Source of the DNA: Citrobacter amalonaticus
GTDB taxonomy: Bacteria; Pseudomonadota; Gammaproteobacteria; Enterobacterales; Enterobacteriaceae
NCBI GenBank assembly: GCA_028994555.1
Contig: JARDVN010000001.1
Location: 2,170,001 to 2,234,000, forward strand
Direction of reading: 5' to 3'
Length of the DNA: 64,000 nt
Position 1 is the first letter of the stretch. Each line of letters starts with the position of its first letter. Of the stretch, positions 1-62,445 are shown piece by piece. The notes below the pieces were generated by a model. It worked only from the letters and a program-made list of their open reading frames with translations. It made no database searches and was not told the DNA's origin. The position numbers were made by a program, and so were the translations under genes.

Positions 1-3000
1 GCTCCAGATGTCCAGCCCAGCGCATCTGAAGAGGAGATCCCTGATGACATGCGCTGGTCAGATGGTTGCACTGGGTGCGCATGCTTTTCAGTTCGCTGAA
101 AAGCGCCTGCGGAGAGAGCGACACCGCGTTCAGGCAATGCTTGCGCAGCAGTCTCAGGCTGTCAGGTGGGTTCTTACCCCACTGTTTTTCCAGAATATCC
201 AGCGTATCGTTCAGTCCTGCCAGTATCTGTTGGTTGCTTAAAACAGGCTGATGACGCATGGCGGACAGGCCTGCACGCAGGGTCAATAAATGCCCGGCCA
301 TATTGCCGCTGTCGACGCTGGAGATATAGCGTGGACTTAGGGGGGGCCAGCGTACGGGTGTCATACCAGTTGTAGAGATGGCCCCGGTAGTGCTCCATTT
401 TATCCATCGTGTCGAGCGTGAGCGACACGCGCCGGAGCACCTCTCCGCCAGGCAGGTAGCCAAAGTCCCATGCCGTCAGGTTAGCCATAAGTGAAAGACC
501 AATATTGGTAGGAGAAGTTCGGTGTGCCACCGTCGGTTGTGGTATTTCCTGATAATTATCAGGCGGAAGCCAGTTCTCTTTTGCTGTGGCAAATGTTTCA
601 AAAAAAGCCCAGATTTCACGGCTTGTCTGGCGTAACAGCTGTTTTTGTTCCTGATTAGGCGAAAAAACCTTACGCACGGGCTGGCGACTCAGCCAGCTCA
701 TCAGCAGCGGTGCCACACACCATACCAAACCGATCGGTAACGCAATCCCCAGCAGCTGTGGGGCAAATTGTCCGGTCAGTATTGTCAGCGCCACGCCACC
801 GGCAACGTTCAGCCACATCGCCTGATAAAAACGTGCAACAGTGGGTCTGGCCTGACTGCTGTCCTGGCTGTGGCTGACCCACTGGCTGAGGTGACGCCTG
901 CTTATCCCCAGTCGCCATAGCGTCACGGCGATCGCTTTCAGCGAATATCCGGCTTCGTGCGGCAGTATCGCAAAATTAAGGCTGATACCTGACAGACGCT
1001 TTAGCGCGCCCGCCCCCCACCATTAACAGATGCGGCTTCACGCGGCGACGCAGAGGTTTATGCAGAAGGTCGTGGCTGATGCAGAGGATGGCTGGCAACA
1101 GCCATATCAGCAACAGTATGCCCAGCCAGTAAACCGGGTTGGGTACCCAAAGCAGAGCGAAGAACAGCAATATCAGTAAGGAGGGGGGCGACCAGACTGC
1201 GACGTAGATTATCGAGTAATTTCCAGTAAGAAAGCGCGGTCAGCGGATTCCTGACCCGGGTTCCATCGGCTTTTCTGACGCGTGGTTTTAGCCAGTTAAG
1301 CAGTTGCCAGTCACCCCGGATCCAGCGTGAACGTCGTGCAACATCCGACAGATAATTATTAGGGTACTGTTCGTACAGTAACACCTCGCTCAGCAGACCC
1401 GAACGTGCATAGCATCCTTCAAGCAGATCGTGGCTGAGTACCAGATTTTCCGGGCAGATGTTGGTAGTGGCCTGCATAAAAATATCAACATCGTAAATCC
1501 CTTTGCCCACAAACGAGCCTTCCCCAAAGAGATCCTGATAAATATCCGAAGACATCATCGAATAAGGGTTATTGCCCGGTACGCTGCTGCGCAGGGCTGC
1601 GTAACGCCCCTGACCGTTGCGTGGTATCTCCTCCGCAAGACCGGGCTGTAAAATACCGAATCCTTTGACAACCCTCTGGCGTACCGGATCATACTCAGGC
1701 GTATTCAGCGGATGCGCCATCGTCGCGACGAGTTTGTGTGCCGTATCGCGCGGGAGCACCGTATCGCTGTCCAGGGTAATGACGTATTTTATGTGACCCG
1801 GTAAAAGGTGGGCAGGCATCTCTGCAACGCTGACGAATTGCGTTCCGGGATGGCGCAACCAGCTGTTCAGTAACGCCAGTTTTCCCCGCTTGCGTTCATA
1901 GCCCATCCACGCTCCTTCCGAGGGGTTCCATTCAGGCTGGCGATGTAACAGATAAAAACGTGGTCGGCCGGAGGGGTAGCGGCGATTAAGCGCCTGCGTA
2001 TCGGCGATAGCCTGTCTGAGCAGCGCGTGACTTTCCGGCGAGGGTTCATTTTCAGAATCAGCAAAATCAGTGAGCAGCGCGAACCTGAGATTTTCGTTTT
2101 CATTCCCCAACCAGCAGACTTCAAGACTGGTGAGGAGCTGGCTGAAACTTTCGTGGCTGGTCAACATGCAGGGAATGACTAACATGGTGGCACTGTCAGC
2201 GGGAATACCGGCTGAAAAATCCATCCCCGGTAAGGGTCGAGGAACGCGAAAACGGGTGGTTGCATCACTGAGCAAATCGCTCATTAACTGAGTTAATGCG
2301 ATAATCAGAGGTAATATCACCGCGATCAATAGCCAGTCTGCGCCCTGCATGGCGGTTTCGTGCAATATTGCTGCGGTCGCTGCGGTTGTCAGCAACGCCA
2401 GGCTTCCAAGCCATGACAGCAGGGTTATTCTGTTGAAACTGTGCCGCAAGCGTATGAGCCTTGAGGCGTCTGCCAGGAGATGAATATCCAGCGCCTGTCG
2501 ACCTTCGCCCGCAAGATAATAACCAACATGATGTTCCGGTGTATCGGGCGCTTTTTCCTCTGAAAGCGCCAGCACCTTCTCAGCAACCTCAGGCTCGCTG
2601 AGACCGCTGTCCCTGGCCAGAACCTCAACTACGTGCCGGTAATGATCCCGGGTATTGAAGTGCATCCGGGGATAGATGCCGGCAGGATCATTGCGTAATG
2701 CCTGTTCGACAACGCTTATCGTTTCGGCGAAATCAGCCCAGTCCGTTTCACTCAATAAACGCAGGCCCGCGATGCTGTTACTGACGGACAGCTGGCTGGC
2801 GGCAAGCTGCTGATTGAAACTATGTATGAGAACGTCAGTGGTGATCCCCTGTTCCCGAAGGCACTGATCAACCCAGGTCAGAGGTAACGACAGCGCGTTG
2901 CCATGCCCCTGCAGGCGCCGCACCAGCTCTGCGACAAACGCACTGGTTAACGGAGGTCGGGAGCGCGCCATATCGGCAACCACCATGATTAAATCACCAG

Positions 3001-3668
3001 GCGCACTCTCTGCGCATTCGACAATCCTTGTTATCCACGTATCAGCAAGGTTTCTGTCCTGCTGCGCTTTTATCACTTCCATACTGATACGACGAAGATT
3101 TTCAATCAGCGCAAGGCGCAGCATTCCCGGTAACGCCCAGACTTCACCCAGCGTCAGCGGCGTCACCTGTTGATAGGCAGTGAGATAGCTGGTCAGGCTG
3201 GCGGCATCCCAGCGGCCATCGCCGTGAGCAATGGCCTCTGATGCAATATGATAAATTCGTGGGCAATTCAACGGCGATACAAGCGACGGAAGACCTTTGC
3301 CAAAGCTTTTCGGCAGATGCTGGCGGACAGTGCGGATTTGTTCCTCAATCAGATAATAATTGTCCAGCAGCCATTCACCGGCGGGCATGATACTGGTCTT
3401 TTTTACCCGCGTTAAGCTCATAGCAGTTTTGGGTAATGACGGCCTCATTGTCGCCAAGCCGTTTCAGAAGATAATAAGGATGCCTATCCGGTGATACTTT
3501 ATGAGTCCGCGCCAGCTTCTGGCCGTAGCGTTCCATCTGGACGGTCGAAAAGAGTTCTGACCGCGGCGAGCTTTCACCGGCAGGATCGTTCGCCGAAAAC
3601 GTTATGTTTTCGGCAGCATTCATCAGAATACGGGAGCGGTTAAACCACGCTCTGGGGATCATTTTCAT
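1..3668 (-). pseudogene. cyclic beta-1,2-glucan synthase family protein (NdvB/ChvB-like), 5' part, frameshifted and cut by the window edge
   Basis: Large inner-membrane glycosyltransferase of the NdvB/ChvB type, a family that makes periplasmic cyclic beta-1,2-glucan. Reading leftward from the ATG at 3668, the product has an N-terminal helical region, a GT84-like transferase core with acidic motifs (ITLDSDTVLPRD; SRWIRGDWQLLNW near 1330), hydrophobic segments (near 2300-2400 and 1000-1200), and then the start of the glucan-processing region (YRGHLYNWYDTRTLAP near 370). The C-terminal phosphorylase-like domain lies beyond position 1. The frame breaks four times, each in a homopolymer with one base too many: T6 at 3399-3404, G6 at 1183-1188, C6 at 1013-1018 and G7 at 340-346. 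Removing one base at each gives one continuous family-typical protein. Family assignment is by recognition of motifs; the exact product is inferred. Confidence 0.8.
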
Positions 3669-3823
3669 AGCATTGCTCTGATGCGACGTTAGCGCGCAGG
3701 AGCAGTTGCGAAATCAGTTCAGAAACGTTCTCTCAGGATGGGCGTCAGGCATCAGGGATTTAACAGCTGCCGGAATCTAACATAAGTATAGGACATGAGC
3801 TCTGTTCTGCGGTTTTGGTCGAG

Positions 3824-3988
3824 CTAGCGTCGGGAGATAAACAGAGCCTTACATCCGGGGCAAAGCATGGTCTGGTTGAGCCGGATTTTTGACAACGGTT
3901 GTACTGATTTTAAGCCACAAACAGGACAGGCAGCAGTGGCAGTAGACGCACTGCTGAAGAATTTCATTGCGTAATTGATAACAGACAT
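3824..3988 (-). CDS. small zinc-ribbon protein of the cold-shock-associated YmcF/YnfQ type
   Basis: 54-residue protein with two CxxC knuckles, CPVCG at residues 21-25 and CPGC at 43-46, flanking a basic stretch (SKIRLNQTML), so it should fold as a zinc beta-ribbon. A GAAAGG ribosome site precedes the ATG at 3988. It lies 81 bases downstream of the cspH-like gene on the same strand. In E. coli, similar miniproteins (YmcF, YnfQ) also sit just downstream of cold-shock genes, which suggests co-transcription and cold-regulated expression. The molecular role is not established. The match to YmcF/YnfQ is from memory of gene order and motif, not from alignment. Confidence 0.6.
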   Translation of the reverse strand: MSVINYAMKFFSSASTATAACPVCGLKSVQPLSKIRLNQTMLCPGCKALFISRR

Positions 3989-4049
3989 AACCATTAACCT
4001 TTCAATGAATGAGCTTCACCGTACCACATGTGGTTAAGTTTTAATCTAT

Positions 4050-4283
4050 CTATTTTGACACACTGAAAATCAGGAAAGATAAATGTTCGCAGCCACAGGC
4101 CCCCCTGAGACCGTTTATCCGGCAAAACTCTATGCGGCTTCCAGGGATGAGTAATTCTGATTCGCGAGAGTTAACGGCTGAAATGTGAAGCAGAACGTCT
4201 TTTCGTCCATCAGATGGGATGATGAGGCCTTTACCACTAAGAATATCAAAGCTTTTGACAATTCCTGTCATTTTATGGGACAA
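4050..4283 (-). CDS. cspH: CspH-like cold-shock domain protein with frameshifted C-terminus
   Basis: OB-fold cold-shock protein, probably nucleic-acid binding. The start [13 protein letters not shown] and the segment [19 protein letters not shown] follow CspH/CspF. The usual aromatic RNP residues are partly replaced (GLI in place of GFGFI), as is typical of the CspF/CspH branch. The open frame is 77 residues and ends in an atypical cysteine-containing tail. Removing one base from the C6 run at 4100-4105 gives [14 protein letters not shown] and a stop at 4070, the normal 70-residue length. The present tail is therefore a frameshift product. The gene is divergent from the CspB-type gene at 4562. 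Confidence 0.75.
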
Positions 4284-4561
4284 GTCAATTCCTTATTGAA
4301 AACACGTAAAGACTATACATTGAAAATGGCATTCAGCCACTTTTATTTTCCCTACAGGACCTCTGGACGGCTAAAAGATAATTTGCTTATATCGATTCCC
4401 TGTGCCTTAATGAATCCCATCAGTTCGATGTACTAATGAAAGTTAGAAATTTTCCGGGCAGTTCTCATTACCAGGCGCTATCGTTGATATCCCCTCTTTT
4501 GAGTCCATATATTTAATCCTATACGTTTACTATCAATACAATCATGTATAACGGAGTCAGT

Positions 4562-4780
4562 ATGACCTCTAGAATTATGGGCCTGGTTAAATGGTTTAAC
4601 GAAGACAAAGGTTTTGGCTTCATCTCTCCTCTTGATGGCAGCAAAGATATCTTTGTCCATTTGTCTGCACTTGATGGCGACAACTTTAAAACTTTATTTG
4701 AAGGTCAGAAAGTTGAATTCGCCATTCACCGCGGAGACAAGGGTCCTGCTGCTGCAAACGTAACACTTTGCGATAAATAA
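4562..4780 (+). CDS. CspA/CspB-family cold-shock protein
   Basis: 72-residue cold-shock domain protein that should bind single-stranded RNA or DNA as a chaperone. It has the intact RNP1 motif KGFGFI and RNP2 motif DIFVHLSAL and ends [13 protein letters not shown]. The ATG at 4562 follows a GGAG ribosome site; an upstream in-frame ATG at 4544 lacks one. It resembles CspB/CspG/CspI rather than CspA itself, so no exact symbol is given. No canonical cold box was recognised in the upstream region. Confidence 0.85.
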
Positions 4781-5048
4781 ATCATTGTGGGTCTGCGATA
4801 ACTATAAAGGATTATTCCTGAGTAGACAGATCCATAACTTAAATCAGATGAAAGTCGTTTATTCATAATATCTGATCAGCATATTTTTCAAAATTATGAG
4901 TATGCTAACCGATGTGATGAAGTGCAGTACTACTGCATAAAAAGTCTAAAAGCACAAACTAACCACATGTTAAATAAGAAGTGCGTAATGGCTTTGACCT
5001 TAATGGCATCTGCCAGTTAATATCCACGAGAGAACAGGGTAATAGAAT

Positions 5049-5276
5049 ATGATTAAAGTCCTTGTTTTCTTTAATGCTGAATCCTGTAAAGTCATGACCG
5101 TTCTGGAAGGTATATCCTCTATCAGGCAGGAATATCCAAACGGTGAAGAAACACATCTTCGGATTATGTCTGCAGGTTTTCCTTCCTTAACTGGCGATCA
5201 TGGTATTGTTTACGTGGCTACTGACAGGGAGTTAACGTCACAGGAGATACTTGATGCGGCCAGGAAATATTTATAG
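5049..5276 (+). CDS. uncharacterised 75-residue protein
   Basis: Small soluble protein without signal peptide or membrane segment; I do not recognise the family. The sequence is evenly mixed and shaped like a small alpha/beta domain (MIKVLVFFNAES at the start, ELTSQEILDAARKYL helix at the end). A CAGGGT ribosome-site-like sequence lies upstream. It stands alone between the cold-shock gene and a strong intrinsic terminator at 5365-5390, which supports expression as a single gene. No function is proposed. Confidence 0.55.
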   Translation: MIKVLVFFNAESCKVMTVLEGISSIRQEYPNGEETHLRIMSAGFPSLTGDHGIVYVATDRELTSQEILDAARKYL

Positions 5277-5364
5277 CATTTTTGTCATGCTCTCTGCTCC
5301 ACGTTTAATTGCATGCTTACCCTATTTATCAGAATCGAACAAAAATGAGTTGAAAACATTTATG

Positions 5365-5390
5365 GCCTGCTAACAGCAGGCTTTTTTTTT
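5365..5390 (+). terminator. intrinsic terminator
   Basis: Perfect 6-bp stem (gcctgc, 5-base loop, gcaggc) followed by nine T residues. It lies 88 bases after the 75-residue gene and probably ends its transcript. Confidence 0.85.
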
Positions 5391-5547
5391 ACATTACACT
5401 TTTTTTAGAAACACCTCTATAAAGAGAGAGTAATTCGCTACCTTCTGACAAAATGCAGGTGTCTCTCCCCTGCGTGCTATCTTGCCATTTGTGAAAAACC
5501 TTGCTAAGTGGCGGCGCTGTCTCTCCTCATTTTAAATCTCATCAGGT

Positions 5548-5989
5548 GTGACTGAAGCAATAAGTTATGAGGATATAAAAAAGGCTCTCCGGATGACTCC
5601 TGGCATCATAGTTTTAAGTACCTTACGTTCTCAGACTCGTGAAATGTCATTAGATGTACTGGAAGATGTTCTGGAAAAGTTTAAAATTATTCTTATAGAA
5701 CGACGAGAAGAAGAGACATTACGTCTTGCAAATGAAAGTCAGCGCCGCGATAAACTGGAAACACTTCGTCAGATGATGCTTGATGAGGGTATCGACCCCT
5801 CCGAACTTTTAGCTGCTATTGGCTCTCCGGGTAAGGCTAAAAGGACGCGCTCCCCCCCGCCCCGCGAAGTATCGATATACTAACGAAACTGGAGAGTCAA
5901 AAACATGGTCAGGTCAGGGGCGAATGCCGAAGCGGATCTCAAATCTGATTGCTGAAGGTGGGGAATTAAAAGATTTTGAAATCAGCTAA
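5548..5989 (+). pseudogene. H-NS/StpA-family nucleoid protein (H-NS paralogue), frameshifted
   Basis: Xenogeneic-silencer family. The N-terminal coiled-coil oligomerisation region (RSQTREMSLDVLEDVLEKF) and the linker motif DEGIDPSELL match H-NS. The C-terminal DNA-binding domain, with the core TWSGQGRMPK (the QGR AT-hook-like motif), is only reached if one base is removed from the C7 run at 5852-5858. The corrected product is 146 residues from the GTG at 5548, or 131 from the ATG at 5593; H-NS is 137, so the start is uncertain. As read, the 111-residue frame keeps dimerisation but loses DNA binding, and such a product could act as a dominant-negative. It differs clearly from housekeeping H-NS and lies in an accessory patch. 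Confidence 0.8.
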
Positions 5990-5990
5990 A

Positions 5991-6021
5991 AAAGAGCCGG
6001 GTAAAACCCGGCTCTTTTTTT
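5991..6021 (+). terminator. intrinsic terminator of the H-NS paralogue
   Basis: AGAGCCGGGT stem, AAAA loop, then ACCCGGCTCT complement running into T6, two bases after the corrected stop codon at 5989. Its position supports the restored H-NS reading frame. Confidence 0.9.
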
Positions 6022-6040
6022 GTAAATGCCGCAAGTTGCC

Positions 6041-6166
6041 TTAGAGAATAGTCGAGAAACATTTAGTTCCGTCGATGTAGCCGAGGCGCTGTTTAAAATC
6101 ACAGTGCTGCTTAAGGGAGAAACCGGTTATCTTGCAGATCGCTACAGCGAGTGAAAAGAGAGCCAT
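6041..6166 (-). CDS. possible 41-residue small protein
   Basis: Short open frame MALFSLAVAICKIT... ending CFSTIL, with a hydrophobic N-terminal third and two further cysteines in the distal part. No good ribosome site is visible, and I do not recognise a family. It is listed because the 6022-6413 interval has no other gene and the composition looks protein-like. Confidence 0.25.
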   Translation of the reverse strand: MALFSLAVAICKITGFSLKQHCDFKQRLGYIDGTKCFSTIL

Positions 6167-6355
6167 CAGGAGCTTTCATTCCGAGTCAATCAGGACAAAA
6201 AATAACGTATGTTCTTCGTGAATCCATACTGCATGAGCTTAACAACGTCTGCCATTGGCACTAAGCGGACATCTTTTAGTTCTGCCCTGCAGAAGTCCGT
6301 TTACGTGTTAATCTAAAATCCCAAGTAATTTCAGATAGATATCATCTCTGTGAAT

Positions 6356-6389
6356 CCCCCCGCCTTCCTGACTGGAACGCGGGGTTTTT
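6356..6389 (+). terminator. terminator-like hairpin
   Basis: CCCCGC (6358-6363) pairs with GCGGGG (6379-6384), followed by T5. It lies 24 bases before the GTPase start, so it probably ends an upstream transcript or attenuates the downstream gene. The rest of 6022-6413 shows nothing recognisable apart from the small open frame at 6041-6166. Confidence 0.6.
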
Positions 6390-6413
6390 AATTTTTCACG
6401 CTGAGACTACTGT

Positions 6414-7289
6414 ATGAATAAACCTGATGGCCTTCAGGCCTTTGAACAACCGCTTGCGTCGCTTCCGTACACGCTTCGCCAGCTTATTCTTGAACGTATC
6501 CAGAACCTGACTCACTACGAGCCGGTGATTGGCATCATGGGCAAAAGTGGTGCTGGTAAATCCTCTCTCTGCAACGAACTTTTCCGGGGCGAGGTGTCCC
6601 CGGTGAGTGACGTGAACGCCTGTACTCGCGACGTACTGCGCTTCCGGCTGCGCAGCGGTTGTCACAGTCTGGTGATTGTCGATTTACCGGGTGTAGGTGA
6701 AAGCGGGCGACGGGATCATGAATACCGGGCCCTGTACCGTCGAATCCTGCCGGAGCTGGATCTGGTGCTGTGGCTCATTAAGGCCGATGATAGGGCACTG
6801 ACCGTGGACGAGCAGTTCTGGCACGGCGTAATGCAACCTTACAGGCAAAAGGTACAGTTTGTGATTAACCAGTCCGACAAAATCGAACCCTGTCATGAAT
6901 GGGATACCCTCACCAGCAAACCTTCACCGCACCAACTGGGAAATCTTAAAGCAAAGCAGGCTGCGATTATGGCGATGTTTAAACCGTATCATCCGGTCTG
7001 TGTGGTGTCAGCCAGCACTGGCTGGGGTATTGAGGAGATGGTGGCAACCATGATGCGCTGTCTGCCTGACCGCGCCACCAGCCCGGTAGCGACACAACTG
7101 CACGGGAGACTCTGCACAGAGCCGGTAAAGTCGCAGGCCCGTAACAATTTCGGTGAAGCTGTGGGCCGGGTTTTCGATACCGCAGAATCATCTTCGTTCA
7201 TGCCTGCATCGCTGAAAACGGTGATTCGTAGCGTGCGTGATGCGGTGGTGTCGGTCGCACGGGCCGTCTGGGACTGGATATTCTTCTGA
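6414..7289 (+). CDS. YfjP/YeeP-type GTPase of CP4-like islands
   Basis: 291-residue Era-like GTPase. G1 is GKSGAGKSS (residues about 43-51), G3 is DLPG within VIVDLPGVGES, and G4 is NQSD. There is an N-terminal helical segment and a C-terminal hydrophobic tail (VARAVWDWIFF) that may touch the membrane. Homologues such as YfjP and YeeP belong to CP4-type cryptic-prophage islands, where a YfjR-like regulator often follows, as it does here. The molecular function is not known. The gene reads through intact. Confidence 0.75.
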   Translation: MNKPDGLQAFEQPLASLPYTLRQLILERIQNLTHYEPVIGIMGKSGAGKSSLCNELFRGEVSPVSDVNACTRDVLRFRLRSGCHSLVIVDLPGVGESGRRDHEYRALYRRILPELDLVLWLIKADDRALTVDEQFWHGVMQPYRQKVQFVINQSDKIEPCHEWDTLTSKPSPHQLGNLKAKQAAIMAMFKPYHPVCVVSASTGWGIEEMVATMMRCLPDRATSPVATQLHGRLCTEPVKSQARNNFGEAVGRVFDTAESSSFMPASLKTVIRSVRDAVVSVARAVWDWIFF

Positions 7290-7461
7290 TATTGCAATTT
7301 TCTCTGCGAATGATGAACTGGTTGTTAATGATTTGTTGATTGTGGACATGTCCTTTCCACTGCGTTTTATCATCAATTAAATCAGACGAAGCATCATTAT
7401 CTGTCAGACGAGCGCCCACAAGCCCGTGCTGCTCATAAAAAATAGTTCCGATGTTGTCCAT
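7198..7461 (-). CDS. doubtful short ORF antisense to the GTPase 3' end
   Basis: 87-residue frame starting MDNIGTIFYEQHGLVG with a plausible AAGGAAGGGG ribosome site upstream. Only the first ~55 codons lie outside the GTPase gene, and the rest is antisense shadow. It may be a remnant of an island gene. Otherwise the 7290-7532 interval holds no recognised gene. Confidence 0.2.
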   Translation of the reverse strand: MDNIGTIFYEQHGLVGARLTDNDASSDLIDDKTQWKGHVHNQQIINNQFIIRRENCNIRRISSPRRPVRPTPPHHARYESPFSAMQA

Positions 7462-7532
7462 ACCCTGTCCACCCCTTCCTTTAAAGTAATCATTATTAAT
7501 TCAGAGAGTTAACATCTCAGGAGAAATCTTTC

Positions 7533-8250
7533 ATGACGCTTCAGGAACGGCGACATGACCGGCTTGCCGTCAGGTTGTCGTTGATTATCAGCCGCCTGGT
7601 GTCCGGTGAAACTCTGTTTATTCGCAAACTGGCAACTGAATTCGGGGTGTCAGAGCGCACGCTGCGTCGTGACTTTCGGGAACGTCTGATGTATCTCGAC
7701 CTGGATTACTACCAGGGGCAGTGCAGTCTGCGCTCGGATATTCACAGTACGCGGCAGGAAATAGATATTCTGACCTTTGCTCACCGCACAGGGCTGGCCG
7801 GGGTTTTCCCGGGCTTTGACCGGCGACTGGTCAGCAGCCTGCTGGACTGTGATGAGCGACCTTGTCTGGTATGGCATCAGGACAGACCTCATCCCCCCGG
7901 CAGGAAAGCTCTGCTTCTACAGGCTGGTCAGAGCTATTTCGGGATGTCAGCGCATCACCATTCTGACTGAAGGGGAGCGTCATGAGGCCGTTGCACCTTA
8001 CCGGCTAATCGCCCTGGATGGTTACTGGTATCTGGTCGCTGAACATAACAGGCAACTACGTGTCTTCCGGCTGGATGAGATTCATCTGGTAAGGCCATCC
8101 CGGGAAACATTTATTCGCAGTGAGCTTCTCCATCAGCTGTCGGAGGACAAACATTTTATCTTAGCCTTACCTCATTTCCGTTTTATTCAACAGTCGCTGA
8201 ATTCATTTTCTCCATCAGAAAGTCGAGGGCAATCCGGACAAACTGATTAG
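7533..8250 (+). pseudogene. YfjR-like transcriptional regulator (HTH + WYL domain), frameshifted
   Basis: DeoR-like winged HTH at residues ~20-50 ([19 protein letters not shown]) followed by a WYL ligand-sensing domain (PYRLIALDGYWYLVAE, then RLDEIHLV). The two halves are in different frames; removing one base from the C6 run at 7893-7898 fuses them into a 238-residue protein. WYL regulators of this kind sit beside the YfjP-type GTPase in CP4-like islands. The start at 7533 follows AGGAGAAATC. Function as a regulator of the island is inferred from family and context. Confidence 0.75.
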
Positions 8251-8285
8251 AGATGGTCTCCATAATTAAATGTAAGGTTAATGCA

Positions 8286-8558
8286 ATGAAAAAATTGAAC
8301 TTATTGTCTTTACTACCAGTCATGTTGTTCCCCTTACTTATCGCAGGTAATGCTCATGCAGCACGTCCTTATAGCGGGTTCCTGCCTGCGGCAGTGAATA
8401 ATAAGAGTGGGAATATATTCTGGTGTGATGCCCACCGACAGGTCAGAAAACTGTGTACAGCGACGGAAGTGGATTCAATGGGATGGTTTATTGTTGTTCG
8501 CTCGAAACCTTCCAGAGATTGTCCGGGTGGCATATGGGGGGTGGATCACTCCCAGTAA
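8286..8558 (+). CDS. small exported protein, 3' end abutting IS1
   Basis: 90-residue protein with a clear Sec signal peptide (KK, hydrophobic core LLSLLPVMLFPLLIAG, cleavage at NAHA|A) and three cysteines (CDA, LCT, DCPG) in the mature part, compatible with periplasmic disulphides. I do not recognise the family. The ATG at 8286 is preferred over 8253 because the signal peptide begins there and AAGG precedes it. A G6 run at 8536-8541 may be one base too long: removing one G changes the end to GGIWGWITPSKDGG, running into IS1 at 8567. The true C-terminus may thus be truncated by the insertion. Confidence 0.6.
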   Translation: MKKLNLLSLLPVMLFPLLIAGNAHAARPYSGFLPAAVNNKSGNIFWCDAHRQVRKLCTATEVDSMGWFIVVRSKPSRDCPGGIWGVDHSQ

Positions 8559-8581
8559 AGACGGTGGGTAATGACTCCAAC

Positions 8582-9085
8582 TTATTGATAGTGTTTTATG
8601 TTCAGATAATGCCCGATGACTTTGTCATGCAGCTCCACCGATTTTGAGAACGACAGCGACTTCCGTCCCAGCCGTGCCAGGTGCTGCCTCAGATTCAGGT
8701 TATGCCGCTCAATTCGCTGCGTATATCGCTTGCTGATTACGTGCAGCTTTCCCTTCAGGCGGGATTCATACAGCGGCCAGCCATCCGTCATCCATATCAC
8801 CACGTCAAAGGGTGACAGCAGGCTCATAAGACGCCCCAGCGTCGCCATAGTGCGTTCACCGAATACGTGCGCAACAACCGTCTTCCGGAGCCTGTCATAC
8901 GCGTAAAACAGCCAGCGCTGGCGCGATTTAGCCCCGACATAGCCCCACTGTTCGTCCATTTCCGCGCAGACGATGACGTCACTGCCCGGCTGTATGCGCG
9001 AGGTTACCGACTGCGGCCTGAGTTTTTTAAGTGACGTAAAATCGTGTTGAGGCCAACGCCCATAATGCGGGCAGTTGCCCGGCAT
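8582..9085 (-). CDS. insB: IS1 InsB (transposase catalytic part)
   Basis: 167-residue InsB frame. The catalytic portion of the IS1 transposase ([12 protein letters not shown], then [13 protein letters not shown], ending [12 protein letters not shown]) is normally made as an InsAB' fusion by -1 frameshifting on the A6C motif at the end of insA. Here that motif is standard (A6), so InsA and InsB are in separate frames as in canonical IS1. Confidence 0.9.
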
Positions 9086-9279
9086 CCAACGCCATTCATG
9101 GCCATATCAATGATTTTCTGGTGCGTACCGGGTTGAGAAGCGGTGTAAGTGAACTGCAGTTGCCATGTTTTACGGCAGTGAGAGCAGAGATAGCGCTGAT
9201 GTCCGGCGGTGCTTTTGCCGTTACGCACCACCCCGTCAGTAGCTGAACAGGAGGGACAGCTGATAGAAACAGAAGCCAC
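9004..9279 (-). CDS. insA: IS1 InsA (DNA-binding regulator)
   Basis: 91-residue InsA with the N-terminal zinc finger (CPSC at residues 8-11, CSHC at 32-35) and a helix-turn-helix ([17 protein letters not shown]). It binds the IS1 ends and represses transposition. It ends HLKNSGRSR after the A6 slippery sequence, the canonical form. Confidence 0.9.
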
Positions 9280-9334
9280 TGGAGCACCTCAAAAACACCA
9301 TCATACACTAAATCAGTAAGTTGGCAGCATCACC

Positions 9335-9518: not shown

Positions 9519-9541
9519 GCAACAGAATAATATGGACATGG

Positions 9542-35881: not shown

Positions 35882-36650
35882 GGTAATGACTCCAACTTAT
35901 TGATAGTGTTTTATGTTCAGATAATGCCCGATGACTTTGTCATGCAGCTCCACCGATTTTGAGAACGACAGCGACTTCCGTCCCAGCCGTGCCAGGTGCT
36001 GCCTCAGATTCAGGTTATGCCGCTCAATTCGCTGCGTATATCGCTTGCTGATTACGTGCAGCTTTCCCTTCAGGCGGGATTCATACAGCGGCCAGCCATC
36101 CGTCATCCATATCACCACGTCAAAGGGTGACAGCAGGCTCATAAGACGCCCCAGCGTCGCCATAGTGCGTTCACCGAATACGTGCGCAACAACCGTCTTC
36201 CGGAGCCTGTCATACGCGTAAAACAGCCAGCGCTGGCGCGATTTAGCCCCGACATAGCCCCACTGTTCGTCCATTTCCGCGCAGACGATGACGTCACTGC
36301 CCGGCTGTATGCGCGAGGTTACCGACTGCGGCCTGAGTTTTTTTAAGTGACGTAAAATCGTGTTGAGGCCAACGCCCATAATGCGGGCAGTTGCCCGGCA
36401 TCCAACGCCATTCATGGCCATATCAATGATTTTCTGGTGCGTACCGGGTTGAGAAGCGGTGTAAGTGAACTGCAGTTGCCATGTTTTACGGCAGTGAGAG
36501 CAGAGATAGCGCTGATGTCCGGCGGTGCTTTTGCCGTTACGCACCACCCCGTCAGTAGCTGAACAGGAGGGACAGCTGATAGAAACAGAAGCCACTGGAG
36601 CACCTCAAAAACACCATCATACACTAAATCAGTAAGTTGGCAGCATCACC
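35882..36650 (-). mobile_element. IS1 copy 2 (769 bp) inserted at the prpE start codon
   Basis: Same sequence and orientation as copy 1 with one extra base in the insA/insB slippery run. Flanked by 9-bp repeats CGTTATGTC, so this is a simple transposition event. It separates prpE from its ribosome site and from the rest of the prp operon. Confidence 0.97.
35897..36595 (-). CDS. insAB: IS1 InsAB' transposase, in-frame fusion
   Basis: 232 residues. InsA (zinc finger CPSC/CSHC, HTH) continues directly into InsB ([23 protein letters not shown]) because the slippery run is T7 at 36338-36344 (A7 on the coding strand) rather than A6. In canonical IS1 the fusion requires a -1 ribosomal frameshift and is rare; here it would be the main product. 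If real, transposase output would be much raised. If the extra base is the same sequence error seen elsewhere, the element is ordinary IS1. Confidence 0.85.
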
Positions 36651-36659
36651 CGTTATGTC
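36651..36659. repeat. IS1 copy 2 target-site duplication, right copy
   Basis: CGTTATGTC, matching 35873-35881. The ATG in this copy keeps the prpE frame but lacks the original Shine-Dalgarno. Confidence 0.95.
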
Positions 36660-49703: not shown

Positions 49704-51783
49704 TTACGCCTGGTTTTTGGCTTTGGACCGGGAAATACGCGCTTCCCCAATCAGCCAGTCAAAGATGAAAATAATCGCCAGCATGACCACGATCAGAATC
49801 GACCCGTAGGCAATCGCCACGCCGTATTCGCCGTCTTCCACGCGGTTCAGAATGTAGGCCGTTGCCACACGGGTGTCCGGCGTAACGAGGAAGACAATCG
49901 CGCTGACGGTGGTGATGGCGCGCACAAAGCTGTAGATCAGCGCTGAAAGAATGGCCGGACGCAGCAGCGGCAGCAGGATGTGCGTGATGGTGCGCAGGCT
50001 CCCGGCACGCAGACTCAGCGAGGCTTCATCCAGCGATTTATCGATCTGTCCGAGTCCTGCGATCCCGGCGCGAATACCAACCGGCACGTTACGCATCACC
50101 ATCGAGATAATGACAATGGCGGCGGTACCGGTGAGGTATACCGGGGCGCTGTTAAAGGCGAGGATGTAGGAGACGCCTGCCACGGTGCCCGGTACGGCGA
50201 AGCACAGCATAGTGGTGAACTCGATGGTCTTTTTTGCCCTTAAACTGCTGGCGGACCACAATCCAGGCGATCAGCAGGCCGAACGCGGCGGTGATCGGCG
50301 CGGCAATTCCGGCATAGAGCAGGGTGTCGAGCAGGGAAGGCCATGCGCCGTCGCTCATGCCCTGGCCGAACAGCTTGATGAAGTTGTCCAGCGTCAGGGT
50401 GTAGTCCACGCCCCAGTTCACGGTGAAGCTGCCGTAGAAAATGCTGCCATAAAGCAGGGCGTTGAAAGCGATCCAGACCGCCAGAATGACAATCACGCTC
50501 CAGACCAGCGTCACCGGCAGTGGCTGGACGTCGCCACGGTATGATTTACCCGAAACGGTAACGTACGAACGTTTGCCAATCCACATGTACTGCACGCAGA
50601 ACACCAGCAGCGAGAACAGCAGCAGGAACGCGCCGAGCGTGCTGGCAGCCTGGTAATCGAGCTGCGAGCCGGTGATGTAGAAGTAAATTTGCGTCGCCAG
50701 CACGTCGAAGTTACCGCCGAGGACCAGCGGGTTACTGAAGTCAGCCAGCGACTGCACGATAACGATCAGGAACGCGTTTGCCAGCGCCGGTTTCAGCAGT
50801 GGGACAAACACGCCGTTAAACGTCTGCCAGCGACTGGCGCGCAGGGTATATGACGCCTCTTCCAGCGACGGATGAATGGTTTTTATTGCCCCGTCGAGGA
50901 TCATAAACGCCATAGGGGTAAACGCCAGCACCTGTGCCAGCCAGATACCGGTGAATCCGTACAGCCAGTTAGTGTTGGTCAGTCCAAACCATTCCACCAT
51001 AAATTCGGTGACGTAACCGGAACGCCCCATCATCAGCGTGACGCCCAGTCCCACCACAAACGGTGGGGTGACGATAGGCAGAATTGAGAAGATGCGTCCG
51101 ATAATGGCGCTTCGCTGAGCGATACGGGTGGTATAAATCGCCAGCACCAGACCGAAGAAGGTACAGCCGACACCCACCGCAATCGACAGGACGATGGAGT
51201 TAATAATGACCTGAATGATATGCGCCTGCGACAGCACATTCATAAATGCCAGCGGTGCGAACTCCCCGGCGTCGTTGGTGAACATCGGGATGAAAATGGC
51301 GATGCTCGGCCAGACGATAAAGATGCCGATGAGCGCCACGATAGTGACCAGCGAACCGATCACAAACCGGTCGCCGCCCAGCCATTCGAGGCGGGTCAGC
51401 GCCAGAGTCATGATCGCCCCCAGCGCTACAAACAGCACGATAGTGGCGTAGCCTAAACCCCGCCCTTCAACGGTGGCGCTGACAACAATAAACGCCATAC
51501 ACAACAGCGCCCAGCCAGCATCGAGGGTGTGGCGGCTGCGCTGCTCGCGTCTGGCTTCGTGGAGCGGGCGAATCAACAGCAGGCTCGGCAGCAGATACCA
51601 CAGCCAACTGATATTGAACCGTGACCAGCCGTAGGCCTCGAGGATTTCATCGCTCGTGGACTCCAGCAGACCGTAATCCAGGCTCCAGCTCGGCAGCAGG
51701 ACGAATGCCAGCCAGCCGAGTAAAACCCAAAGGAATATCGCATCCCGTTTTTTCACGGGATGGAGTGCAAGTGTGTGTGACAT
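49704..51783 (-). pseudogene. afuB: AfuB, ABC permease with two fused membrane domains, frameshifted
   Basis: 692 residues when repaired, ~12+ membrane helices and two permease EAA loops (HPSLEEASYTLRASRWQTF and DKSLDEASLSLRAGSLRTI), as in FbpB-type double permeases. Removing one base from T6 at 50230-50235 (A6 on the coding strand) joins GKKTIEFTTMLCFAVPGTV. The start at 51783 (MSHTLALHPVKKRDA) is preferred over the upstream extension to 51840, which runs into REP DNA. It forms the transmembrane channel for AfuA-delivered substrate. Confidence 0.9.
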
Positions 51784-51806
51784 ACGTTTTCCGGTGTTCA
51801 ATCCCG

Positions 51807-51892
51807 AGTAGGCCGGATAAGCGTAAGCGCCATCCGGCATTCAGGGTGACGATGATTGCCGGGTGGTGGCATTGCCTTACCCGGCCTACGTA
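51807..51892. repeat. REP pair between afuA and afuB
   Basis: GTAGGCCGGATAAGCGTAAG...CATCCGGC and an inverted GCCGGGTGG...ACCCGGCCTAC unit. It lies within the operon between the binding-protein and permease genes, a position where REPs often keep binding-protein mRNA levels high. Confidence 0.8.
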
Positions 51893-54321: not shown

Positions 54322-55865
54322 TCAGAAGGCGATTTGTTGCAAATTTGTGGGCAAGTTAACACTAACCCGCGTACCGTGCCGCGACTCCAGCGCCAGTTCG
54401 CCGCCGAGGGCGCTGACCCGCTCACGCATCCCCTGAATGCCGAAACCGGCCATTTTGTCTGCGCTGATCCCCACGCCGTTGTCGGTCACTTCCAGATGCA
54501 ATATGTCTCCCTGCTGACACAGGATAATCTGCACTTCACTTGCCCCGGCGTGTTTACAGACGTTGTTGAGTAACTCCTGTAACAGCCGATAGAGAGTGAA
54601 GCGTACCGTTTCATTCTCTGGCGTGGCGGTGAGTTGATAATCAAACTGGCAGCGAATACCGCGCTCCGTGAAGGCGAACTCGTTGAGCAGATGGAGTAGC
54701 GCCTCTTTGAACGACAGCTCGTCGAGCGCGGGGGGGGGCGAAGCTGGCGTAACAACAGGCGGGTCGAGTGGTGGATGCGCCGGGCAAGATCGTTGATCTG
54801 GCTGGCGGCGGCCTGGGCTTGTGCCGGATCGTGCGCCCGTTTCACCAGTTGTGACTGGATCTGAATGGCAGTGATATTCTGCCCGATTTCGTCGTGCAGC
54901 TCGCGGGCCAGGCTTTTACGCGTATCCTCTTCGGTGTGCACCAGTTTTTCCGCCAGTGCCCGCCGCGCCGCCAGTTCGGCTTCCAGCCGCTGGCGGTAAT
55001 GGTGCAGGTTTTGCGCCAGATGTTGCTGACGACTGATGGCGATCCCCAGCCCCATTCCCAGCAGTGACTGCGTTGCGAGAAAGATCTCCAGTTCAACCAG
55101 ATTGCTAAACCCCACGCCTATCTGGCGGGCGATGGTGATCATCATGCTGCCGAGTAGCCCCGAGAGCACGCCGCCCTGCCAGCCGAATTTCCACGCCATC
55201 ACTACGTTAGGCAGGAACACCACAATCAGCAGCAGGCGTTCAATTTCCGGCGACAGCACCATCTGGGTGCCAATCCCGATGATAAAAAACAGGCTGCACC
55301 AGATGATGAGCGAGGTACGTAGCGGCGGGTTATTGGTGTCCAGCCCCAGCAGGTGGTAGCGATGCTGCTGGCGCAAAAATTCGAAGATCAGGTAGACGAA
55401 CGGCGTCAGCAACACGCCGCCGGTAAACGACGCCAGCCCAAGCAACATCGCCGGACTTTTGACAAACGGCGACAGCAGGGCGGCGTTGAGCAGTGACGCC
55501 GCCGTGACCGTGGCCAGCAATAACGTCAGCCGCTGCCAGTAAAGAGGAAAACGGTACCAGAAGGTCTGCGCGAGGCTGGCGGGAATCACGCTGATGAGCG
55601 GCGTGGCCAGCAGAATATAGCCATTAAGCAGCTGTTCGCTGTGCAGCCAGAGCATCATCAGCATCGGTGGCAGCACCAGCGCGGGCCAGTAGCGGCGTGA
55701 CAGCAGGATCAGCAGCGCCAGGTAGACGCCGTGCGGCAAAAACAGCGCCGCCTGCTGACCGTTGTGTGTCAGATAAAAGCCGAGCGTCCACAACATCAGC
55801 CAGCCGGTACCCCAGGCCAATACAATGAATAATGAGAGAACGGCGTGGCGGAGGCTGCGCGACAT
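54322..55865 (-). pseudogene. UhpB-like histidine kinase, frameshifted
   Basis: 513 residues when repaired. An N-terminal MASE1-type domain with ~8 membrane helices, then dimerisation/phosphoacceptor LARELHDEIGQNITAI (His in ELHDEIGQN) and an HATPase domain (VTDNGVGISADKMAGFGIQG). The frame breaks in G9 at 54730-54738; the conserved LRPPALDEL needs seven bases (or ten with one more Pro), so this is a two-base excess, unlike the single-base excesses elsewhere. The start overlaps the uhpA-like stop by one base (TAATG). Confidence 0.87.
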
Positions 55866-56494
55866 TAATACCCCGCCAGCAACTGGTGGTCGAGGGCGAA
55901 ATGCACCAGATCGATGGTGCTGTGACAGTTCAGTTTGCCCAGCACATTGGCGCGGTGCACGTGCACCGTTTTATGGCTGAGATCGAGTTTGAAGGCGATC
56001 TCCTTCACGCTGTCGCCTTTGACGAGTAAATCAAAGACTTCTCGTTCGCGTGGGGTCAGTACATCCAGCACCGGTGACGAAGGCTTACCACCGCGCAGCG
56101 CCCGTAGCGCATCGGCGCAAAGATAATGCCCACCGAGGCCCACCGAGCGGACGGCCTGCACTAACTCTTCCGGCCCGCAGCGTTTAGTCAGATAGCCGCT
56201 GGCTCCCGCATCCAGTGCGCTCTGCACGAAGGCGGGCGTGTCATAGATGCTAAGAATAATGGCGCGAAACTGTGGCTTTTGCGCCCGTAGCCGTTTCAAC
56301 AGGCTCAGTCCGTTTTCGTCCGGCATGGCGATATCCATCACGGCCACGTTGACATCGTCACGCAGCAACGCAGGCCAGGCTTCGGCCGCGTTACTGTACT
56401 GGCCCACGACGTCGAGGTCTTCTTCGAGACTGAGTAATTGCGCAAAGCCGGAACGCACCACCACATGGTCGTCCACCAGCACTACACGGATCAT
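55865..56494 (-). CDS. UhpA-like NarL/FixJ-family response regulator
   Basis: 209 residues, intact. Receiver domain with phospho-aspartate in VAVMDIAMPDENG (about residue 54), acidic pair VDDH near the start and conserved K105 (YLTKRCGP), then a LuxR-type HTH (LTPREREVFDLLVKGDSVKEIAFKLDLSHKTVHVHRANVLGKL). First gene of the six-gene uhpABC-like/afuABC run on the minus strand. It should activate this operon when the UhpC-like protein senses a sugar phosphate. Confidence 0.92.
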   Translation of the reverse strand: MIRVVLVDDHVVVRSGFAQLLSLEEDLDVVGQYSNAAEAWPALLRDDVNVAVMDIAMPDENGLSLLKRLRAQKPQFRAIILSIYDTPAFVQSALDAGASGYLTKRCGPEELVQAVRSVGLGGHYLCADALRALRGGKPSSPVLDVLTPREREVFDLLVKGDSVKEIAFKLDLSHKTVHVHRANVLGKLNCHSTIDLVHFALDHQLLAGY

Positions 56495-57192: not shown

Positions 57193-57310
57193 CTAACCAT
57201 TCCCGTTTTTTTCTAAAAACGCTTTGTTCTTAACAAGAACGTTTAATTCCTTTATCAAATTCAGCCGCAACGAAATACTGCCTCCATAACAAGACAGGGG
57301 AGCAGACACT

Positions 57311-58274
57311 ATGGCCGTTTCATCGCGTAACACAATTCTTGCCGCACTGGCATTCATCACCTTTCAGGTGCAGGCGGTAAACGTCACCGTCGCGTACCAA
57401 ACCTCCGCTGAGCCGGCGAAAGTGGCGCAGGCGGATAACACCTTTGCCAAAGAGAGCGGGGCCACCGTCGACTGGCGTAAGTTCGACAGCGGCGCGAGCA
57501 TTGTGCGCGCCCTGGCGTCTGGCGACGTGCAAATCGGTAATCTCGGCTCCAGCCCGCTGGCGGTTGCTGCCAGCCAACAGGTGCCTATCGAGGTTTTCCT
57601 GCTGGCGTCAAAACTCGGCAACTCCGAAGCACTGGTGGTGAAGAAAACGATCAGCAAACCCGAGGACCTGATCGGCAAACGTATCGCGGTGCCCTTTATC
57701 TCTACCACTCACTACAGCCTGTTGGCGGCACTGAAACACTGGGGGGATCAAACCCGGCCTGGTGGAGATTGTGAACCTGCAGCCACCGGCGATTATCGCC
57801 GCCTGGCAACGTGGAGATATTGATGGAGCTTACGTCTGGGCGCCTGCCGTTAACGCGCTGGAAAAAGATGGCAAGGTGCTGACCGACTCGGAAAAAGTTG
57901 GTGAGTGGGGCGCACCGACGCTGGACGTTTGGGTGGTGCGCAAAGACTTTGCCGAGAAGCATCCGGAGGTGGTGAAAGCCTTCGCCAAAAGCGCCATTGA
58001 CGCGCAGCAGCCCTATATTGCCAATCCCGACGAATGGCTGAAAAAACCGGAGAACATCAGCAAGCTGTCGCGTCTGAGCGGCGTGCCGGAAGCCGATGTG
58101 CCGGGGCTGGTGAAAGGCAACACTTATCTTACCCCTCAACAGCAGACGGCTGAGCTGACCGGACCGGTGAACAAAGCGATTATCGACACCGCGCAGTTTC
58201 TGAAAGAGCAGGGTAAGGTGCCTGCGGTGGCAAGCGATTACAGTCAGTACGTCACCGATCGCTTCGTGCAATAA
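57311..58274 (+). pseudogene. tauA: taurine-binding periplasmic protein, frameshifted
   Basis: 320 residues when repaired. Signal peptide ending FQVQA|VNVTVAYQT; SsuA/TauA fold with DWRKFDSGASIVRALASGDVQ and IGNLGSSPLAVAAS. Removing one base from G6 at 57741-57746 gives LKHWGIKPG and joins the two parts. Nearly identical to E. coli TauA. A GGGGAGC site precedes the ATG. First gene of tauABCD, used for sulphur from taurine under sulphate limitation. Confidence 0.95.
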
Positions 58275-58285
58275 AGGAGGCGCTG

Positions 58286-59054
58286 ATGCTGCAACTTTCT
58301 CATCTGTACGCCGATTACGGCGGTAAACCGGCGCTGGAAGATATTAATCTGACGCTCGACAGCGGTGAGCTGCTGGTGGTACTGGGGCCTTCGGGATGTG
58401 GCAAAACGACGCTACTGAACCTGATTGCCGGATTTGTGCCGTATCAGCACGGCAGTATTCAACTGGCGGGAAAACGTGTCGACGGGCCGGGGGGCAGAGC
58501 GCGGCGTGGTGTTTCAGCATGAAGGGCTGCTGCCGTGGCGCAACGTGCAGGATAACGTCGCGTTAGGTTTGCAACTGGCAGGTGTCGGGAAAGTGCAGCG
58601 TATCAGCATCGCTCAGGAAATGTTGAAAAAAGTGGGGCTGGAAGGCGCAGGAAAACGCTTTATCTGGCAGCTTTCCGGTGGTCAGCGCCAGCGCGTTGGC
58701 ATTGCCCGCGCACTGGCGGCGAATCCACAGCTTTTGCTGCTGGATGAACCCTTTGGCGCACTGGACGCCTTTACCCGCGAACAGATGCAAACCCTGTTGC
58801 TGAAGCTCTGGCATGAGACCGGTAAACAGGTGTTGTTGATTACGCATGATATTGAAGAAGCGGTATTTATGGCGACCGAACTGGTGCTGTTGTCTCCCGG
58901 ACCAGGCCGCGTGCTGGAGCGTCTGCCGTTGACCTTTGCCCGCCGTTTTGTGGCAGGCGAAGCGAGTCGCAGTATTAAGTCCGATCCGCAGTTTATTGCG
59001 ACCCGCGAATATGTCTTAAGCCGCGTCTTTGAACAACGGGAGGCCTTCTCATGA
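58286..59054 (+). pseudogene. tauB: taurine ABC transporter ATP-binding protein, frameshifted
   Basis: 255 residues when repaired. Walker [10 protein letters not shown], signature [16 protein letters not shown], Walker [14 protein letters not shown]-loop THDIEEA. Removing one base from G6 at 58489-58494 gives [19 protein letters not shown]. The ribosome site AAAGGAGG follows the tauA stop directly. The stop overlaps tauC by 4 bases. Confidence 0.95.
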
Positions 59055-59878
59055 GTGTGGTGATCAACGACAAGCCGCGCCAACGGGCACTGAAATGGCG
59101 CTGGCCGTTTTCCCGGCAGATTACGCTGAGCCTGGCGACGCTGACGGTGATTCTGGCGGTGTGGTGGATAGTTGCTGCACTGCAACTGATAAGCCCGCTT
59201 TTTTTGCCGCCGCCGGATCAGGTACTGCAAAAACTTATCACCATCGCCGGTCCGCAAGGGTTTATGGATGCCACGCTGTGGCAGCATCTGGCCGCCAGCC
59301 TGACCCGCATCGTGCTGGCGCTGCTGGCCGCGGTGGCGTTCGGTATTCCGGTCGGGATTGCGATGGGGCTCAGCCCGACGCTACGCGGCATTCTCGATCC
59401 GATCATTGAACTTTACCGTCCGGTGCCGCCGCTGGCTTATCTGCCATTAATGGTTATCTGGTTCGGTATTGGTGAAACCTCCAAGATCCTGCTGATCTAC
59501 CTGGCGATTTTTGCTCCGGTCGCGATGTCCGCGCTGGCGGGCGTGAAAAGTGCGCAACAGGTGCGGATCCGTGCCGCCCGATCGCTGGGCGCAAGTCGGG
59601 CGCAGGTGTTGTGGCTGGTGATCCTGCCGGGCGCGTTACCCGAGATCCTCACCGGATTACGTATTGGGCTCGGCGTGGGCTGGTCAACGCTGGTGGCGGC
59701 GGAGCTGATTGCGGCGACGCGGGGATTAGGCTTTATGGTGCAGTCGGCCGGTGAGTTTCTGGCGACCGACGTGGTGCTGGCGGGGATCGCGGTGATTGCG
59801 ATTATCGCCTTTATTTTAGAACTGGGTCTGCGTGCGCTTCAGCGCCGCCTGACGCCCTGGCATGGAGAAGTCCAATGA
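59051..59878 (+). CDS. tauC: taurine ABC transporter permease
   Basis: 275 residues, intact, ~6 membrane helices. Binding-protein-dependent transport family with EAA loop [26 protein letters not shown]. Start and stop overlap tauB and tauD by ATGA, showing translational coupling across the operon. Confidence 0.95.
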
Positions 59879-60727
59879 GTGAACGTCTGAGCATTACCCC
59901 GCTGGGACCGTACATCGGCGCACAGATTAGCGGTGCGGACTTAACCCGCCCGCTCAGCGACAATCAGTTTGAGCAGCTTTACCATGCGGTGCTGCGACAT
60001 CAGGTGGTGTTCCTGCGCGAGCAGGCTATTACGCCGCAGCAGCAACGGGCGCTGGCCCAGCGCTTTGGCGATCTGCATATTCATCCGGTCTATCCGCATG
60101 CGGAGGGCGTGGAGGAGATTATCGTGCTGGATACGCACAATGATAATCCACCGGATAACGACAACTGGCATACCGACGTGACGTTTATTGAGACGCCGCC
60201 TGCCGGAGCGATTCTGGCAGCAAAAGAGTTACCGTCAACCGGCGGCGATACGCTTTGGGCCAGCGGCATTGCGGCGTTTGAAGCGCTGTCGGAGCCGTTT
60301 CGTCAGTTGCTGAGCGGCCTGCGGGCGGAGCACGATTTCCGAAAATCCTTTCAGGAATATAAATACCGTAAGACGGAAGAGGAACATCAGCGCTGGCGTG
60401 AAGCGGTAGCGAAACATCCCCCCGCTTACGCATCCGGTGGTACGAACCCATCCGGTGAGCGGTAAGCAGGCGCTGTTTGTTAACGAAGGTTTCACGACGC
60501 GCATTGTTGATGTGACAGAAAAGGAGAGTGAGACGCTGCTCAGTTTCCTGTTTGCCCACATCACTAAACCGGAATTTCAGGTGCGCTGGCGCTGGCAACC
60601 CAATGACGTGGCGATCTGGGATAATCGCGTGACGCAGCATTACGCGAACGCAGATTACCTGCCGCAGCGGCGCATTATGCACCGGGCGACGATTTTGGGT
60701 GACAAACCGTTTTATCGCGCGCCTTGA
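59875..60727 (+). pseudogene. tauD: taurine dioxygenase, frameshifted
   Basis: Fe(II)/2-oxoglutarate dioxygenase that releases sulphite from taurine. 283 residues when repaired. Iron ligands in NWHTDVTF (H, D) and the distal histidine in [12 protein letters not shown]; the 2-oxoglutarate arginine is in RIMHRATI. Removing one base from C6 at 60418-60423 gives [14 protein letters not shown]. Last gene of the tau operon, convergent with the acyltransferase gene. Confidence 0.95.
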
Positions 60728-60743
60728 GCGTCGGGCAACGGCG

Positions 60744-62445
60744 TTATAAATGTGCCTCAATATAGCGCTGATAACGACTGGTTTTCAGACGGGTTAAATC
60801 CACCAGGACCAGCCCATCTACGCAGTGGTTAAAATCCGGGTCGCTGCCAAAATCGATGAACTGAACGCCGCCCGGTTCGCACAGTTCCGAGTATTGCTTA
60901 TAGAGCGGGGGGAATACCGCAGCCCAGATTTCCCAGTAAGGATTTCAGGCGGATCAGATCTTCTGTGTAATCACGGCCTGAAAACTGCGCCAGAACGTCC
61001 GGCAGCGAAGCAGGATACGGCTGGCGCGAGATGGCCAATGGATGAGTGGGTGGGAACCACAGTCGATAGAAGGCAACCAGCAGATCGCGTGCATCTGGCG
61101 GCAATCCTCCGGAAATAGACACGGGGCCAAACAGGTAACGATACTGCGGGTAACGCGCCAGGTATGCGCCGATTCCTGACCAGAGATAATCCAGCCCGCG
61201 ACGTCCCCAGTAGCGAGGCTGAATGAAGCTGCGTCCCAGCTCAATACCGTGCTGCATGATGTTTGCCATTCGCTCGTCGTAGTCAAACAGACTGTGACTG
61301 TAGAGTCCTTCCAGCCCCTGTTTTTCCAGTTGCTGTGCGCAGGAGATAAACCGGTAAGCGCCGATGATTTCCAGCTCCTCCTCATCCCATAAGATCAGAT
61401 GCTGATAGTCATCATCGTAGCGATCGATATCTCTGCGCTTGCCGCTCCCTTCGCCGACGGCGCGAAAGGCAATTTCGCGCAACCGTCCCAGCTCGCGCAG
61501 AATTGTCGCCTCTTCCTGGCCGTTGTGCTGCCACAGATAAATGCGTTTGCCATCGGCGGTGCGCCCGAGGCACTCCGCCTGCGCCAGCTCGCGCTTTAGA
61601 CGCACCCTGTTTTCTGGCGGCGCGATGGTCGCTTCAGTCCGAAAGAGAGCAGGACGGCCTTTTCCCAATGCATTCACGTGCTCCCGGCATTTTTCCGCCT
61701 GCTCGCGAACGTGGCTTTTGCTGACGGACCACTGCGCCCAGGCAATCTGTTGACCGATGCGTACAGGCAGCGTGCTGCCGCGACGGCGAAACATTTGCTG
61801 CATTAACAGCAGCAGCGTGGCACGGGAAGAAATCAGCCCGCAGGCATAGAAGAGCGGGCTGTTATACGCCTGAATATGTACCGGCAGCAGCGGCGTTCGG
61901 TATTTTTCCGCCATGCGAATAAACCCGGAATGCCAGCGGCGTTCGGCTATCCCTTTCAGCGTCAGACGCGAGACTTCACCCGCAGGAAAGAAAACCAGCG
62001 CGCCGCCCGCCTGCAAGTGCGCATCCATTTGCTGTAACGATGATTTTGGCGTCCGCCCCTGAATATTGTCTACCGGGATGAACAGCGCGCGCAGAGGTTC
62101 CAGATGAGAGAGCAGTCGGTTGGTCACCACTTTGATATCGCGACGCACGCGGGAGAGGGCATAGATAAGCGCCAGTCCGTCCAGTGCACCGGTAGGGTGG
62201 TTAGCGATAATCACCAGCGGGCCATTTTCGGGGATGTTTTCGATGTGGTGCTCGGGGATTTCACAACGTATTTGCAGGTGCTCCAGGATTTGCTCCACCA
62301 TATCCACGCCTTTCAGATGGCGATGGCAGGCAGCAAACTGCTGGAACTCTTTTTCATATAACAGGTGTTGTAACACCTTTTTTTGCCAGGGCGCGGTCCT
62401 CGCCTCGGGCCAAAGGTCGCTGAGTACGTTATCGAGACTGAACAT
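60744..62445 (-). pseudogene. OlsF-type bifunctional acyltransferase (PlsC + GNAT/OlsB-like), frameshifted near the C-terminus
   Basis: 566 residues when repaired. N-terminal lysophospholipid acyltransferase domain (NHPTGALDG at ~95 as the NHx4D motif; FFPAGEVSR as the second block) followed by a hemolysin-type acetyltransferase domain (GAYRFISCAQQLEKQGLEGLYSHSLF). This order is that of OlsF proteins, which make ornithine lipids in one polypeptide. The frame breaks in G6 at 60907-60912; removing one base extends LGCGIPPLYKQYSELCEPGG to a stop at 60744. Starts MFSLDNVLSDLW at 62445 after GGAGGTGG. The lipid product is inferred from domain order. Confidence 0.8.

Follow-up and report, generated by a model that had tools for sequence, protein, structure and literature searches.

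The DNA analyzed here, referred to below as the window, is a 64,000-nucleotide stretch of Citrobacter amalonaticus (contig JARDVN010000001.1, positions 2,170,001 to 2,234,000) in which many homopolymer runs are one base longer than the same runs in related genomes. We consider it about 95% probable that these surplus bases are a systematic error of the sequence or its consensus and not a feature of the organism. Error is favored because the surpluses begin at a run length near five, go in one direction, prefer G/C runs, and are absent from relatives; because two copies of the insertion sequence IS1 disagree; and because the broken genes keep normal constraint and the substitutions are too few for a mutator. 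A preliminary description of the window had likewise preferred systematic error to a mismatch-repair mutant, and the tests of run lengths, IS1, constraint, and substitutions reported below support that preference.

Run lengths in the window and in its relatives

Identity to a stretch of E. coli is 82-85% for the window and for eight congeneric genomes. Using these eight genomes as the comparison set, and requiring clear flanks and agreement among at least two-thirds of the relatives (the strict rule), we obtained a consensus length for 9,261 of the 12,308 window runs of at least two bases. Surplus is confined almost entirely to the longer runs: none of 7,056 runs of two and none of 1,586 runs of three carry a surplus base, and only one of 466 runs of four does, as against 20 of 104 runs of five, seven of 34 runs of six, and one of eight runs of seven, the last by two bases. 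Shortening by one base was seen once at length 3, twice at length 4, and once each at lengths 7 and 8, the last two both in A/T runs. Among runs for which at least two relatives agree, 12 out of 90 of length five or more are longer in the window and none is shorter. When each relative is instead compared in turn with the others, only two of 327 comparisons deviate at these lengths.

Runs of at least five bases number 244 in the window; a relaxed rule, which adds five E. coli records for a total of 13 relatives, gave a consensus for 165 of them, and the other 79 could not be judged. At these lengths there are 32 surplus runs (11 of them supported by a single relative) and three shortened runs, all A/T, with three further shortened runs at length four. 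Surplus affects 18 out of 29 G/C runs of at least five and 14 out of 133 A/T runs, the three shortened A/T runs being set aside (P = 1.6e-8, Fisher's test). The G/C fraction is 1/191 at length four, 14/23 at five, 3/5 at six, and 1/1 at seven; the corresponding A/T fractions from five to seven are 7/92, 7/33 (two shortened runs left out), and 0/7. These fractions trace the rate against run length, with which it should rise in a mismatch-repair mutator. Indels are confined, with few exceptions, to homopolymers above a length threshold near five, and other sequences that cover these runs independently lack the surpluses.

The same pattern is visible without alignment. G/C runs of lengths 5, 6, and 7 number 18:23:8 in the 64-kb window, compared with 55:10:1 (69 kb), 48:10:1 (60 kb), and 52:10:1 (65 kb) in the relatives G001, G004, and G008, respectively. 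The window spectrum is inverted at the step from five to six, and its density of G/C runs per kilobase at lengths 3 and 4 lies inside the range of the relatives. Counts of G/C runs at lengths 5, 6, and 7, set against those of a relative, can flag such sequence without reads or alignment.

The stretch shared with G001 and the two IS1 copies

The cleanest test of direction comes from the first 8566 bases of the window, which hardly differ from a stretch of G001, a congeneric genome in one contig. Over 8,553 shared bases, the window carries a single extra base at 13 places, lacks none, and differs by five substitutions. All 13 surpluses are inside runs, eight of them G/C and five A/T; nine are changes from five to six bases and four from six to seven. 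E. coli records at the shared runs mostly agree with G001 and not with the window. Against a plasmid of E. coli strain JNE132847, six such surpluses are present in the window and none of these in G001; against the chromosome of E. coli G3/10, there are eight, together with one run in which the window has two extra bases and G001 one; and against a plasmid of E. coli GF131 (first 4,078 bases), there are four. The window and G001 also have a few other differences from the E. coli records in common, including shortened runs, as strains do.

These counts (13 to 0 against G001, and 32 to 3 among runs of at least five with 13 relatives) confirm the surplus bases in homopolymers that the preliminary description had reported. 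Its statement that no base was missing at a homopolymer is nearly right, although strictly a few A/T runs of at least five are shortened. The comparison of run lengths with close relatives, which it had proposed as a check, comes out with the longer runs in the window, the relatives themselves hardly deviating.

The two IS1 copies differ by no substitutions and by one base in one run. At this run, copy A matches five IS1 copies from outside the window, and copy B matches none. The surplus in copy B is in an adenine run preceding a C, which we take to be the programmed-frameshift site of IS1; the database records examined label IS1 "programmed frameshift." Copy B reads as a single frame of 235 codons and copy A as two frames. 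The same sequence has thus been read differently at different places, although in one IS1 pair only. Copy B separates prpD from prpE and is flanked by a short repeat.

In G001, the counterpart of positions 1-8566 lies at a different place from the sequence that corresponds to the remainder of the window. In the window, this island ends at IS1 copy A, whose flanks carry no repeat. Because of the near-identity to a displaced G001 stretch and the end at an IS1 copy without a flanking repeat, positions 1-9334 suggest a recent transfer together with an IS1-linked rearrangement.

Broken frames and competing explanations

We mapped the open reading frames (ORFs) of relatives onto the window as 57 models and found frame switches in 23 of them, 26 switches in total. 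All but three are in the +1 (or -2) sense, the exceptions being net +2, +8, and +2. Fifteen of the 26 fall at runs already scored as surplus. Among the other 11, nine are in the surplus sense and lie close to a G/C run of five to seven bases; another has a net of -8, and the last has a net of +8 where no run exceeds four. The breaks are spread over about 20 genes, some with more than one break, and two more ORFs are doubtful. The preliminary description was correct that surplus bases break frames, but its count of more than 30 reading frames becomes about 20 genes here; the two surplus bases it noted in uhpB are matched by a switch of net +2 in the MASE1 sensor kinase gene.

The broken genes are as constrained as the intact genes and give no sign of relaxed constraint. 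Over aligned pieces, the ratio of nonsynonymous to synonymous substitution (dN/dS) is 0.076 for broken genes (16 printed) and 0.087 for intact genes (12 printed), and each class has three in-frame stops. This comparison was limited to ORF models of at least 150 codons from position 9400 onward and to pieces that aligned at equal length; note that its intact set includes a spurious overlapping frame (59029-59751) and a model that holds a surplus run with a nearby stop (17756-18541).

If the surpluses are errors, the base caller, assembler, or polisher of the contig would have over-called homopolymer length. Length would hardly ever have been wrong in runs of up to four bases; G/C runs of at least five would have gained a base in ∼60% of cases (two bases in the longest G/C run), and A/T runs of at least five in ∼10%; an over-called run inside a gene would make an intact gene look frameshifted. 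Reads would then show the shorter runs. Were the window representative, a genome of 4.9 Mb would hold ∼2,900 G/C and ∼1,500 A/T surplus bases, a load that seems hard to square with a living haploid cell and should hit essential genes many times. Anyone who infers pseudogenes or gene loss from this assembly would be mistaken, and we give this as a warning.

That the surpluses are real appears to us very improbable: the strain would need a mutator state, or mutagenesis in its recent past, by which G/C runs of at least five gain one base and almost never lose one, and by which few substitutions arise. The specific form of a mutant in mutS, mutL, mutH, or uvrD that has accumulated strongly gain-biased one-base slippages is no more credible. 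Loss of mismatch repair does increase one-base homopolymer indels (PMC5854121; PMC8510543; here and below, figures and comparisons come from parts of the papers cited), as in the window, and the size and place of the lesions in positions 1-8566 fit such a loss. However, in mutation accumulation lines defective in mismatch repair, substitutions exceed indels severalfold and both gains and losses occur (PMC8510543; PMC5854121): 30,061 substitutions and 5,324 small indels in E. coli (PMC8510543), and 1,022 substitutions and 273 indels in a V. cholerae mutS mutant (PMC5854121). The expected excess of substitutions is absent from positions 1-8566, with 13 indels and five substitutions. At the E. 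coli ratio, the probability of at least 13 indels among 18 events is P = 8e-8; the V. cholerae numbers give P = 5e-6 and V. fischeri numbers P = 4e-11. In two Vibrio mutants, gains approximately equal losses, neither strongly dominating (PMC5854121), as against 13 to 0 here, and the expectation of changes in both directions also fails among runs of at least five under the relaxed rule, with 32 gains and three losses. The jump in G/C surplus from 1/191 at length four to 14/23 at length five seems very abrupt for slippage. The two IS1 copies differ, which a mutator would permit as well.

Decay of these genes in a lineage losing them under relaxed selection is slightly less probable still. It would account for ∼20 genes reading as broken, but the dN/dS values and the equal number of stops in the two classes show no such relaxation, and decay would also produce losses, stops, and larger deletions. 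At the bottom of the scale, we place two further proposals. One is phase variation through length change in many run-bearing genes: Some of the affected genes code for surface proteins (autotransporters), but metabolic genes and noncoding DNA are affected as well, and the runs concerned, five to seven bases in relatives, are short and stay constant from one relative to another (2/327 deviating). The other is exposure to an acridine-type frameshift mutagen. Acridine-type mutagens add bases in G/C runs, so the G/C preference and the direction of gain would agree; the A/T runs (14/133) are affected too, however, and the extrapolated density would probably have disrupted essential genes many times.

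Of the published error patterns with which we compared the window, those of unpolished nanopore drafts and of Ion Torrent data bridged over repeats with data of another kind provide the candidate pipelines. Flye nanopore drafts are, like the window, dominated by insertions: a draft of P. aeruginosa in the Homopolish study had 14,394 insertions, 439 deletions, and 738 mismatches, the systematic errors being mainly homopolymer indels that shift frames, and polished versions shed most of the insertions (PMC8011154). Unlike the window, the portion of that study used here shows neither a threshold at five nor a G/C preference for insertions. Ion Torrent assemblies resemble the window in many one-base homopolymer indels and an excess of frameshifted proteins (PMC4159541; PMC12046094), with 56 indels per 100 kb in Ion PGM assemblies (PMC4159541) and a mean run length of 5.5 at indels (PMC12046094), but deletions outnumber insertions and adenine is affected most (PMC12046094). 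Short Ion Torrent reads alone would also hardly bridge the window's pair of IS1 copies. A PacBio consensus has G/C-run frameshifts in an otherwise accurate assembly, as here, but with a base missing and not surplus, and with runs of at least three affected (PMC4487206). Precedents of both signs are thus published, and they single out no platform; nor do PMC9262707 and PMC11232133.

Several observations weigh against error as the explanation. Published errors of PacBio consensus sequence, of nanopore reads and assemblies, and of Ion Torrent alleles are mostly losses (PMC4487206; PMC8486125; PMC12007338; PMC12046094). A/T surplus is more common outside the mapped ORFs (7/27) than inside them (7/106; P = 0.008), so a part of the A/T surpluses may be genuine indels. 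Positions 1-8566 have denser G/C surplus (7/7) than the rest (11/22; P = 0.026), a difference for which only uneven read depth offers itself as a cause. One G/C run of four is an exception to the threshold at five, and prpD and prpE are perhaps further exceptions, the longest run near their switches being five bases in the window.

Affected genes and their surroundings

The affected genes comprise those for a glucan synthase (GH94, a label taken from E. coli annotation), an H-NS paralogue, a WYL regulator, a YebC-type regulator, an EIIB-like protein, and a methyltransferase; two or three autotransporter genes, prpR, prpD, prpE, and genes for an AraC-type regulator and an ABC permease; and those for a MASE1 kinase and OlsF, with tauA, tauB, tauD, and a 169-aa gene without family. 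Coordinates of the main features are given in Table 1. Positions 26622-29187 hold an autotransporter gene, and the PapC usher is an open frame at 9542-11950. When part of prpD served as a protein query (8,000 sequences scored), the 120 matches listed were cluster representatives of 82-96% identity, which tell nothing about copies within the same species. We take hemB to be an essential gene, the only one in view that we regard as such.

Table 1. Principal features of the window, in window coordinates
Feature	Position	Strand	Observation
Island nearly identical to one G001 stretch	1..8566	.	13 one-base surpluses; cleanest test of direction
IS1 copy A	8567..9334	-	Runs match five outside IS1 copies
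prpR-type regulator gene	30372..31942	-	Two frame switches, three surplus runs
prpD	34385..35834	+	One frame switch; strong constraint kept
IS1 copy B	35881..36651	-	One surplus base in one run
prpE	36655..38539	+	One frame switch; strong constraint kept
ABC transporter permease gene	49707..51840	-	One frame switch
MASE1 sensor kinase gene (uhpB of the preliminary description)	54325..55868	-	Frame switch, net +2
tau genes tauA, tauB, tauD	57299..60721	+	One frame switch each
OlsF-type ornithine lipid synthase gene	60747..62553	-	One frame switch
hemB (ALAD domain)	62566..63660	-	Open; without G/C run of at least five

Window positions 9335-14000 had no match in the eight congeneric genomes at an E limit of 1e-100. 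Within them, positions 9542-13552, unmatched in these genomes, hold the PapC-type usher, a fimbrial protein, and a winged-helix regulator. Immediately after prpE, at 38691-41801, is an open gene for a LacZ-type beta-galactosidase; at its place, the compared E. coli record has cod and cyn genes, with lacAY ahead of lacZ.

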